Of a stretch of 64,000 nt of DNA, positions 50,759 to 54,467 are shown in pieces; position 1 is the first letter of the stretch, and each line of letters opens with the position of its first letter. Source of the stretch: an uncultured bacterium (lineage in GTDB: Bacteria > Planctomycetota > Phycisphaerae > Phycisphaerales > UBA1924); contig CAILKP010000073.1 of NCBI GenBank assembly GCA_903834785.1, forward strand, positions 1 to 64,000. The letters are read 5' to 3'. The translations under genes and the position numbers were made by a program. The notes beneath the pieces are model-generated. The model saw only the letters and a list, made by a program, of their open reading frames with translations, was not told the DNA's origin and searched no databases.

Positions 50759-51826
50759 ATGGCTCGTGGCACGCACGTGATCGGGATTGATTTGGGTGGA
50801 ACGAACATGCAGATCGGGGTGGTGAGCCCGGCGCTGAAGGTGATCGGCCGGGCCAAGAAGAAGACGCGGTCAATGGAGGGGAGCCAGCGGGTGATCGACC
50901 GGCTGATCGACGGGGTGCACGAGGCGTGCGTGAACGCGAAGATTTCGCTCAAGGACATCTCGGCGATCGGCATCGGTGCGCCGGGCGCGGTTGATCCGCG
51001 GCGAGGGCTGGTGCTGGAGGCGACAAACCTGCGGTGGAACGACTACCCCCTTGCAGCGGTGCTGAGCCGGAAGTTCGGGCACCATGTGGTGGTGGACAAC
51101 GATGTGAACGCGGCGATCTATGGGGAGTGGCGCCTGGGGGCGGCCAAGGGGCAGGACGAGGTTCTGGGTGTGTGGGTTGGCACCGGGATCGGTGGTGGGC
51201 TGATTCTGGGCGGGAAGATGTACTACGGGGCAACGCACACAGCCGGTGAGATCGGGCACACGATTCTGTTCCCCAACACACCGCCAGGCTCCCGGACGCT
51301 GGAGAACAACTGCTCGCGGACGGCGATCGTGGACCGGCTGGTGCGGCTGATTCGGGCCAACCACCCGTCAGCGATCACGGACCTGGCTGATGGCGACTTG
51401 AGTGATGTCAAGGCCCGGATCGTGGCTCAGGCCTATTCCAAGAACGACCGGCTGACGCGGATGGTCGTCGACAACGCTGCGGAGATGATCGGAATCTCGG
51501 TGGCCAACGTGGTGACGCTGCTGGGCATCCAGCGGGTGGTCATCGGCGGTGGATTGACCGAGGCGATGGGCGAGAATCTGGTCGGCAAGATCCGGGAGTC
51601 CGCCCGGCGGCATGCATTCCCTGAGGTATGCCGCAAGGTTGAGGTGGTGGCGACGAAGCTGGAGGCGGATGCCGGACTCCTGGGTGCGGCGATGCTGGCG
51701 AGAGACTGGCTGGAGAGCCGGAAGGGCAAAGCGGGCGCGGTGGCAGGTACGGCCAAGCCGGTCCGGACCCGCAAGGCGGCGGTGAAGCGGCCGGCGGGGA
51801 AGAAGCCGGCTGCTGGCAAAGCGTAA
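50759..51826 (+). CDS. ROK-family sugar kinase with a Lys/Ala-rich tail
   Basis: A 355-aa protein. VIGIDLGGTNMQIGVV is the phosphate-binding motif, GIGAPGAVDPRRG and VVVDNDVNAAIYGEW follow, and GTGIGGGLILGGKMYYG and AGEIGHTILFPN are the usual ROK motifs. The zinc-binding CxCGxxGCxE motif is replaced here by a different sequence (RTLENNCSRTAI), so the usual metal site appears to be lost. The last about 33 residues are Lys-, Ala-, Arg- and Pro-rich (RKAAVKRPAGKKPAAGKA), like histone H1 tails. Glucokinase is the most likely activity, but ROK substrate specificity cannot be read from this. Confidence 0.82.
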   Translation: MARGTHVIGIDLGGTNMQIGVVSPALKVIGRAKKKTRSMEGSQRVIDRLIDGVHEACVNAKISLKDISAIGIGAPGAVDPRRGLVLEATNLRWNDYPLAAVLSRKFGHHVVVDNDVNAAIYGEWRLGAAKGQDEVLGVWVGTGIGGGLILGGKMYYGATHTAGEIGHTILFPNTPPGSRTLENNCSRTAIVDRLVRLIRANHPSAITDLADGDLSDVKARIVAQAYSKNDRLTRMVVDNAAEMIGISVANVVTLLGIQRVVIGGGLTEAMGENLVGKIRESARRHAFPEVCRKVEVVATKLEADAGLLGAAMLARDWLESRKGKAGAVAGTAKPVRTRKAAVKRPAGKKPAAGKA

Positions 51827-51880
51827 AACTCACGCCGCGGAGGTGGGGAATCGACGGAGGCGTCGCTACCATGCCGGTCC

Positions 51881-52783
51881 ATGGCAAAGAAGATCGCCAA
51901 GTCAGCGTCCAAGTCCGCCGGCAAGTCTGCGGGCAAGCCCGCCAGCAAGCCGGCAAGCAAGTCGTCAGCCGGCACAGTCGGTAAAGCGGTAGTCAAGAAG
52001 CCGGCGGCCAAGGCCGGCAAGCCGGTGGCGGCACGCGCCGGCACCCCTCCAGCGACCAAGCGGCAGGCAACAGCGGGCAAGCCCGGCAAGCCGGTCAAGC
52101 CGATTGCTGGTGCGGCTGCATCCAAGGGCCGCAGCGGCGTTGGTGGCAATAAGTCGAAGTCGGCGGCTGTGAAAGCCCCTCCCAAAGTAGTCGGCAAGCC
52201 GGCGGCCGCGACCGGCAAGGCAAAGTCCGGGCTGGCGGCGGCGGTGAGCCAGGCGGTAACGGCGGCTCCGGCGGGCCGAGGGGTGAGCGCGGCGGTTGCC
52301 CAGATGGAGGGCGCGGCGCAGCTCCAAGGCAAGGCACCCGGGCGACCGGGCTCGAAGTGGGAGCGGCCTTCGCTCAAGCGAACGCCCGCCCAGCAGGCGG
52401 CGATGACGGCCTCCAAGGGGCGGCTAGAGAAGCAGCGCGAGGTTGCACGGGCGTTTGCCGTTGATGTGGCGCGTTTGCTGGCGGACCTGCGGTGTGAGAA
52501 CGTGGTGATTCTGGACTGGAGCCGGTACTCCAGCACGAGCGATTACGTGGTCGTGGCAACGGGTACCAGCGATCGCCAGATGCGGACGTGCGGCGATGAG
52601 GTTTCAAAGCTGGCCGAGACGATCAGCCACGGCCTGCCGCGGGTTGAGAGCGATGAGCGTGCGACCTGGGTGCTGTGCGACGCGTCCGATGTGGTTGCGC
52701 ACGTGTTTGAGCCCAATACGCGGGCCCACTATGACATGGAAGGAATGTACCCGGATGCTCCGCGTGTGGATTGGCAGCGGTGA
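51881..52783 (+). CDS. rsfS: Ribosome silencing factor RsfS with a histone-H1-like N-terminal extension
   Basis: A 300-aa protein, about 2.5 times the usual RsfS length. Residues about 190-300 are RsfS/Iojap: DVARLLADLRCENVVILDWS, STSDYVVVATGTSDRQMRTC, and ATWVLCDASDVVAHVF. RsfS binds L14 on the 50S subunit and blocks subunit joining in poor nutrient conditions. Residues 1-185 are an extension of Lys, Ala, Pro, Ser and Gly (for example KSASKSAGKSAGKPASKPAS). It probably is disordered and positively charged, and may bind RNA or DNA. ATG 51881 is 54 bases after the ROK gene. Confidence 0.88.
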   Translation: MAKKIAKSASKSAGKSAGKPASKPASKSSAGTVGKAVVKKPAAKAGKPVAARAGTPPATKRQATAGKPGKPVKPIAGAAASKGRSGVGGNKSKSAAVKAPPKVVGKPAAATGKAKSGLAAAVSQAVTAAPAGRGVSAAVAQMEGAAQLQGKAPGRPGSKWERPSLKRTPAQQAAMTASKGRLEKQREVARAFAVDVARLLADLRCENVVILDWSRYSSTSDYVVVATGTSDRQMRTCGDEVSKLAETISHGLPRVESDERATWVLCDASDVVAHVFEPNTRAHYDMEGMYPDAPRVDWQR

Positions 52784-52859: not shown

Positions 52860-53237
52860 ATGCTTCGAAAAGTCCTGCACAGCAAGATCCACATGGCGGT
52901 GACCACCGCGGCCAAGCCGGACTACGTCGGCTCGATCACGATTGATGCGAACCTGCTTGAGGCGTGCGGGATGCGGGTGAACGACGCCGTCGAGATCGCC
53001 AACTGCCGAAACGGTGAGCGGTTTGAGACGTACATCTTCCGCGGTGAGCCGGGCAAGGGGCAGATCGAGGTCAACGGTGCGGCGGCACATCTTGTGGAAG
53101 AGGGCGACAAGCTCATCATCATGCACTACGCGTACATGACCGACGAGGAATACTCCCAGAACCGTCCGCGTGTGCTGATCATGGATGAAAGCAACAAGGT
53201 CCGGCAGCTGATGCGGTATGAGCCGTCGGCCCAATAA
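52860..53237 (+). CDS. panD: Aspartate 1-decarboxylase precursor
   Basis: A 125-aa protein of normal length. It makes beta-alanine from aspartate for pantothenate synthesis. MLRKVLHSKIHMAVTT is the standard start, and Gly24-Ser25 in DYVGSITID is the self-cleavage site that forms the pyruvoyl group. NGAAAHLVEEGDKLIIM is the family's core. It lies 76 bases after rsfS and 42 before aroB, on the same strand. Confidence 0.95.
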   Translation: MLRKVLHSKIHMAVTTAAKPDYVGSITIDANLLEACGMRVNDAVEIANCRNGERFETYIFRGEPGKGQIEVNGAAAHLVEEGDKLIIMHYAYMTDEEYSQNRPRVLIMDESNKVRQLMRYEPSAQ

Positions 53238-53279
53238 CGCCGGGTGGCCGGTCGCCCCGCGAGCGGGCAGGAGCAGACG

Positions 53280-54467
53280 GTGGCAAAGCTGAGCGTGAAG
53301 GTTGTGACCCGGGCCGTGGCGGGCGCTTCGTACGAGGTGCACATCGGTCGTCGTCTGCTGGGCAGATCAGTGGGCCCCCTGGCCAAGGGACGGCGCGTGC
53401 TGCTGGTGGTGGATTCGAACGTGCCGGCGACATCGATCGGCGAGCTGGTGGGTGCCGTGGAGCGTGCCGGCAAGCAGTACGCGGTGCTTCCCGTGCTCAC
53501 CAGTGAGAAAGCCAAAACGCTGGGCACGGTGGCCAAGGTACTGGAGGCGGCGGCGACGCTGTCGCTCGGACGCGATGACCTGATGATCGCCGTCGGCGGC
53601 GGGGTGCTGACGGACCTGGTGGGGCTGGCTGCCGGGCTGCACCGGCGCGGTTGCCAGGTGGTGCACTGCCCCTCGACGCTGCTGGCGATGGTGGATGGCT
53701 CGGTGGGGGGCAAGACGGCGGCGAACATTGAAGTGGACGGTCGGCTGATCAAGAACGGCGTGGGCGTGTTCCATCAGCCCGTCCGCGTGGTGTGTGACAT
53801 GGATCTGCTGGCCTCGCTGCCGGAGCGCACGTTCCGCGCCGGGCTGGCGGAGTGTCTCAAGCACGGCCTGCTGGGCGGAGCGTTTGCGGATGCGACGCTC
53901 TGGGATGAGACGGTTCTGGCGGTGGAGCGGGGGCCCGTAGTGGGGAGTGCCGGGCTGCCCGCGCTGGTGGCCCGCAACGTGAGGCTGAAGGCCGCTGTCG
54001 TGGCACTGGATGAGCGGGAGACCCGGGACGACCTGCCGGGCGGGGGGCGGATGGCCCTGAACCTCGGCCACACCTTCGCCCACGCCATCGAAACGCTGCA
54101 TGGATTGAGCTGGTTTGACGGGCGACGGGTGCGGCGGGGCACGCTGCTGCATGGTGAGGCAGTCGGCCTCGGGCTGATCTGTGCGGCGACGCTCTCGGCG
54201 GAGCTTGGATGCTGCGACCGGGGGTTTGCCGACCGGGTGCGGCTGGCCGTTGGCCTGGCCGGGCTGCCGGTGGAGGTGGGGGGGCTGCCGCCGGATTCGG
54301 AGTTGCTCGCCCGGATGGGCAGCGACAAAAAGGTCAAAGGCGGTAGGGCCCGATTTGTGGTCGTCAGTGATGACCTGCGGCCGGCGGTGCGGTCGGATGT
54401 GGCACCGTCGCTGGTGCGGGCGGCGCTGGCGGCAATCCGGACGTCACAGGGTCGGAAGCGGAGGTAA
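53280..54467 (+). CDS. aroB: 3-dehydroquinate synthase
   Basis: A 395-aa protein if started at GTG 53280, which has GGAG eight bases upstream; a GTG at 53244 is in frame but lacks this. Motifs: VGGGVLTDLVGLAAGLHRRG, MVDGSVGGKTAANI, AECLKHGLLGG (metal-binding Glu), LNLGHTFAHAIE and LLHGEAV (metal-binding His). It makes 3-dehydroquinate in the shikimate pathway. Cotranscription with panD is likely. Confidence 0.93.
   Translation: MAKLSVKVVTRAVAGASYEVHIGRRLLGRSVGPLAKGRRVLLVVDSNVPATSIGELVGAVERAGKQYAVLPVLTSEKAKTLGTVAKVLEAAATLSLGRDDLMIAVGGGVLTDLVGLAAGLHRRGCQVVHCPSTLLAMVDGSVGGKTAANIEVDGRLIKNGVGVFHQPVRVVCDMDLLASLPERTFRAGLAECLKHGLLGGAFADATLWDETVLAVERGPVVGSAGLPALVARNVRLKAAVVALDERETRDDLPGGGRMALNLGHTFAHAIETLHGLSWFDGRRVRRGTLLHGEAVGLGLICAATLSAELGCCDRGFADRVRLAVGLAGLPVEVGGLPPDSELLARMGSDKKVKGGRARFVVVSDDLRPAVRSDVAPSLVRAALAAIRTSQGRKRR

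Follow-up and report, generated by a model that had tools for sequence, protein, structure and literature searches.

A recurrent H1-like basic arm at the N-terminus of the ribosome silencing factor RsfS in Phycisphaerales-type bacteria, beside a ROK kinase with a separate-looking tail

Few ribosome-silencing factors are as widely conserved as RsfS (also called RsfA, YbeB or Iojap), which is usually a small, acidic protein of one domain. The RsfS proteins of Staphylococcus aureus, Escherichia coli and Mycobacterium and the mitochondrial protein MALSU1 belong to the same core family as the RsfS described here and share its uL14-contact residues. S. aureus RsfS sits on uL14, adjoining bL19 and H95 of the 23S rRNA, and its residues Arg53 and Lys56 are described as contacting 23S rRNA (PMC7125091). 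The solved bacterial RsfS chains that match the present protein are 105 to 152 residues long, too short to contain an arm of the length found here. In MALSU1, too, the N-terminal region is long.

Basic low-complexity tails resembling those of histone H1 are well known on other bacterial proteins. In AlgP (AlgR3) and PhaF of Pseudomonas, a folded domain is joined to a disordered, Lys/Ala/Pro-rich terminal arm that contains repeats, and the AlgP tail, at 154 to 195 residues, is similar in length to the RsfS arm. Unlike the RsfS arm, however, these tails are C-terminal, consist of regular KPAA repeats, are bound to DNA and granules, and belong to proteins unrelated to RsfS. The lysine-repeat tails of actinobacterial topoisomerase I and HupB/HupS are comparable as basic, low-complexity segments that add non-specific affinity for nucleic acid and processivity; they differ in being C-terminal tails of DNA-acting proteins, for which the action on DNA has been demonstrated. 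The lysine-rich low-complexity regions of prokaryotic ribosomal proteins (PMC6821194) are, in the portion of that survey available, terminal, rich in lysine and alanine, and present on translation proteins, as is the RsfS arm, whereas they are mostly C-terminal and belong to ribosomal proteins, with no RsfS seen in that portion. No account of RsfS with a lysine-rich arm was found within the accessible parts of the open-access literature on RsfS extensions and H1-like bacterial tails. The tail is thus of a known kind, on what is apparently an unreported carrier.

The stretch of DNA analysed (the window, 64,000 nucleotides) comes from contig C73 of a 4.3 Mb assembly in 161 contigs, whose closest named relatives with rsfS are MAGs of the Phycisphaerales or Phycisphaeraceae. 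It contains a ROK kinase gene (50759-51826, 355 residues) followed on the same strand, after 54 bp, by rsfS (51881-52783, 300 residues). The features of this region are:

50759 to 51718, plus strand: catalytic body of the ROK-family sugar kinase (residues 1-320), by match to PF00480 (E=7e-56, residues 7-316)
51719 to 51823, plus strand: Lys/Ala/Pro-rich C-terminal tail of the ROK kinase (residues 321-355), from the sequence
51881 to 52384, plus strand: basic, predicted disordered N-terminal arm of RsfS (residues 1-168), from composition, structure prediction and recurrence in relatives
51910 to 51961, plus strand: imperfect short tandem repeat within the RsfS arm, with a 12/24-bp unit, CAAGTCCGCCGG-like, from TRF and an excess of repeated 9-12-mers; units of this size span 51898-51961
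52385 to 52780, plus strand: RsfS core, the ribosome silencing factor domain (residues 169-300), from PF02410 at 196-290, TIGR00090, solved structures and a confidently predicted fold
52860 to 53237, plus strand: PanD, aspartate decarboxylase, a conserved neighbour downstream of rsfS (PF02261, E=1e-42; neighbourhood cluster 8)
53244 to 54467, plus strand: AroB, 3-dehydroquinate synthase, a conserved neighbour downstream of rsfS (PF01761, PF24621; neighbourhood cluster 1, 40 loci)

This neighbourhood of rsfS is retained in many relatives. Upstream of the ROK-rsfS pair, an HNH protein is encoded on the opposite strand.

In a profile search the ROK kinase scores 190 bits against PF00480 (cut-off 22.9); its best NCBIfam match, TIGR00744 (ROK glucokinase family), falls under that model's cut-off. 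A zinc-binding CxCGxxGC motif is common in ROK proteins and lies outside the Pfam criterion applied; it was not found in the window protein (51236-51350) or in the 13 other orthologues displayed (L153-L166). All 14 have PPGSR..ENNCSR or near variants after the GE(I/V)GH motif. The last 35 residues of the kinase, after position 320, are Lys/Ala/Pro-rich and basic (RKGKAGAVAGTAKPVRTRKAAVKRPAGKKPAAGKA). Orthologues seldom have anything comparable. Their tails are absent or at most 12 residues long in 28 of 29 cases (0 to 9 residues in 27), with the chain ending between -3 and 12 residues beyond position 320 in all but one; in the same-genus genome G062 the tail has 12 residues. The exception, from genome G035 (L163, contig C13), has a basic C-terminal tail of 28 residues whose sequence differs from that of the window kinase and which probably arose independently.

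A sequence-only reading of the window had described facing tails on these two genes, and both are present where it placed them, at the C-terminus of the kinase and the N-terminus of RsfS. It had further suggested that a single low-complexity tract spread, or that both proteins are tethered to nucleic acid, the nucleoid or the ribosome. The spread of a tract between the genes, or one function common to both proteins, is recommended by the fact that the tails face each other, an arrangement expected by chance only about 0.03 to 0.1 times per genome, but the window pair is one post hoc and non-conserved case, and the similarity between the tails is limited to composition. The best local score between the tail DNAs (27.0) equals that of codon-shuffled copies (mean 26.8, p=0.46), and the protein score (46) equals that of composition shuffles (44.5, p=0.38), so that neither comparison reveals excess similarity. 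Nor are the genes kept together: a ROK gene was found within about 9 kb of rsfS (a span somewhat shorter at contig ends) in 0 of 80 relatives, comprising 60 genomes of the family and 20 of other families, and in G062 rsfS lies on contig C161 and ROK on contig C40. A conserved ROK-rsfS pair was rejected on these grounds and on the neighbourhood table. The ROK tail, moreover, is short or missing in nearly all orthologues, so that the two tails do not go together, an outcome that the sequence-only reading had itself named as its refutation. Spread or common function is thus extremely improbable. As judged from the sequences, there is no sign of a common origin, and the likeness of the ROK tail to the RsfS arm looks like an unrelated coincidence. 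The RsfS tail has internal repeats of its own, which makes tail growth look local; each gene seems to have lengthened its own end. For the ROK tail, we are evenly divided over whether it is a short, lineage-specific C-terminal extension brought next to rsfS by chance rearrangement. Of the two proteins, only RsfS, with its recurrent tail, remains a reasonable candidate for tethering to nucleic acid or the ribosome. The case is a caution that look-alike low-complexity tails on adjacent genes need not have a common origin.

The RsfS core is ordinary. It scores 77 bits against PF02410 (cut-off 21.6, E=1e-21, residues 196-290 of 300) and, with 79 bits, lies above the TIGR00090 cut-off of 56.9; it also matches the solved RsfS structures 2o5a, 6sj5 and 6sj6. 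The residues that face uL14 are kept as Trp263 and Tyr284, which align with Trp77 and Tyr98 of S. aureus RsfS in 6sj6. Across 58 family members the Trp is present in all and the Tyr in 57, and every tailed form has both. The AlphaFold2 model gives pLDDT values of 44 to 60 and zero secondary structure for residues 1 to about 160; a helix begins at residue 169 and a confident, well-folded core continues from there. Residues 1 to 168 thus form a long, Lys/Ala/Pro-rich, disordered tail of the H1-like kind. Lysines number 30 and arginines 9 in residues 1 to 186, against 3 Asp/Glu, and in the family mean net charge shifts from about -8 in untailed RsfS to about +18 with the arm. The tail reads as coding, because its third-position GC (0.79) is similar to that of the surrounding genes and AAG is used for 27 of its 30 lysines. 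A mis-called start is unlikely, given the conserved MAKK-like starts, the coding-type GC3 and a dN/dS below 1. Repeated 9-mers (p=0.002) and 12-mers (p=0.012) are in excess over codon shuffles; regular KPAA repeats were not found in the arm, which by TRF has just short, irregular 12/24-bp repeats.

The arm recurs in relatives. A strict lysine-rich N-terminal tail is present in 13 of 54 RsfS proteins of the same family versus 0 of 808 N-terminal ends of neighbouring genes in those genomes, and none of the 15 RsfS proteins taken from the order's other families has one (Fisher p=5e-17 for the first comparison and 0.03 for the second, with kinship ignored). The gene caller behind the count of 13 applied no rule specific to tails; a later pass added a bonus for the start motif. 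In a second set, which overlaps the first and comprises 80 loci of named Phycisphaerales and other planctomycetes, 19 have at least 9 lysines in 40 residues. Across relatives the tails are about 40 to 220 residues long, and the upstream start of RsfS is supported by the many that open with MAKK, MAKR, MPAKKK or MAAKKK. A tree built from AroB and the RsfS core of 42 genomes, weak in its deep branches, shows clustering of the tails: their states require 7 parsimony changes versus 12.5 for shuffled labels, a value equalled in 0 to 1 of 500 shuffles; the well-supported branches force just 1 change. The window's clade has 5 members with support of 99, and all 5 were counted as tailed, with the qualification that G062 and G032 have a weaker, less lysine-rich tail and that G062, whose start is uncertain, was scored by eye. 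The arm is inherited within a clade.

Length and sequence of the tail turn over fast, even inside genera. In one close pair of genomes dN/dS was 0.12/0.32 for the tail and 0.02/0.31 for the core, and in a second 0.27/0.60 and 0.04/0.47, giving ratios of about 0.38 to 0.45 for the tail and 0.06 to 0.09 for the core. Purifying selection acts on the composition of the tail more than on its exact sequence. Most family members have no arm, and it is therefore dispensable. The rapid turnover, together with the short internal repeats and the tails found on unrelated enzymes of the window's genome, would suit a nearly neutral arm, produced by expansion of GC-rich codon repeats at the ends of genes in this lineage, with weak selection purging just the harmful versions. 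This explanation is unlikely, however, as tails are far more frequent on RsfS than on the products of adjacent genes in the genomes compared, and the tail dN/dS is below 1.

Together, these observations establish an RsfS arm that reads as translated, is basic, predicted to be disordered, and recurrent. We give about an even chance to the reading that it is a recurrent H1-like polycationic arm, separate from the ROK tail, with which RsfS gains additional non-specific affinity for nucleic acid, be it the 23S rRNA around the uL14 site or another target. One Phycisphaerales-type family would have repeatedly acquired a disordered Lys/Ala/Pro-rich arm of 40 to 220 residues before an ordinary RsfS core. 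On the 50S face, the core would dock on uL14; the arm may contribute non-specific electrostatic binding to nearby 23S rRNA (the H95 region) or other ribosomal RNA. Such binding could give a higher occupancy of RsfS or hold it near idle subunits in starvation. RNA as the target of the arm and retention as its function are what we infer. At the positions corresponding to S. aureus Arg53 and Lys56, most residues in the family are acidic or neutral, in tailed and untailed forms alike; the arm is therefore not a simple replacement for these residues. A separate proposal, that the arm compensates for a more acidic core, was rejected: tailed cores are less acidic than untailed ones (-6.4 vs -8.4, p=0.005). 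By reversing the charge of the protein, a recurrent basic arm would serve as a natural experiment on the ways in which a hibernation factor locates and retains its ribosome; comparisons are readily made between tailed species and their untailed relatives.

Other polyanions have to be weighed as targets. The arm might bind DNA as do the C-termini of AlgP, PhaF or HupB, so that RsfS, together with its 50S subunits, would be drawn to the chromosome. Both AlgP and PhaF bind DNA in vitro through their KPAA-type tails, which also position granules (PMC9239181), and TopA of the window's genome also has a lysine-rich N-terminal tail; yet the known partner of RsfS is on the ribosome, the nearest polyanion is rRNA, and no DNA-related neighbour or partner was found, which leaves a nucleoid tether unlikely. 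Polyphosphate is a further candidate, bound by the lysine arm in starvation to control RsfS itself or its cellular location. The window's genome encodes polyphosphate kinase (PPK), AlgP is located on polyphosphate granules (PMC9239181), and the lysine-rich ends of YihI and RNase R, ribosome-linked proteins of E. coli, bind polyphosphate (PMC12345225). However, PPK is common and nothing links it to the RsfS arm, which, unlike PASK motifs, is poor in acidic residues; a role as polyphosphate sensor is very doubtful.

Similar tails occur elsewhere in the window's genome. Among the 563 genes of an 800-kb sample, 7 ends (about 1.2% of the sampled genes) pass the strict test, and this rarity indicates that they are not simply a product of genome composition. 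The 7 belong to ROK, RsfS, the branched-chain aminotransferase IlvE, glutamate dehydrogenase, bL25, TopA and one unassigned protein resembling DUF1801; SucA passes a looser test. Since IlvE, glutamate dehydrogenase and ROK have no known link to RNA, the tails may serve some general purpose, or matter little. It is quite unlikely that the arms on RsfS, IlvE, TopA and bL25 work as one shared system, assembling proteins of translation and metabolism on nucleic acid or polyphosphate in starvation. Detecting tails by the reach of whole-genome protein alignments was abandoned, as in the RsfS control the alignments ran on through untailed frames and stops and gave false positives, and recurrence of the IlvE and TopA tails is therefore only a lead.

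IlvE (L185:5130-6236, minus strand, contig C60 of G000) has a Lys/Ala/Pro-rich N-terminal extension of about 75 residues that is more H1-like in sequence than the ROK tail. Glutamate dehydrogenase (L185:17942-19375, minus strand) and the E1 component of 2-oxoglutarate dehydrogenase (L135:4733-7723, minus strand) have lysine-rich ends, placing central metabolic enzymes among the carriers. The ribosomal protein bL25/Ctc (L189:15986-16744, minus strand, contig C40 of G000) ends in a C-terminal tail of KPAAG repeats. TopA, DNA topoisomerase I (L221:4139-6970, plus strand, contig C135 of G000), has a tail rich in lysine and arginine at its N-terminus, the opposite end from the lysine repeats of actinobacterial TopA.
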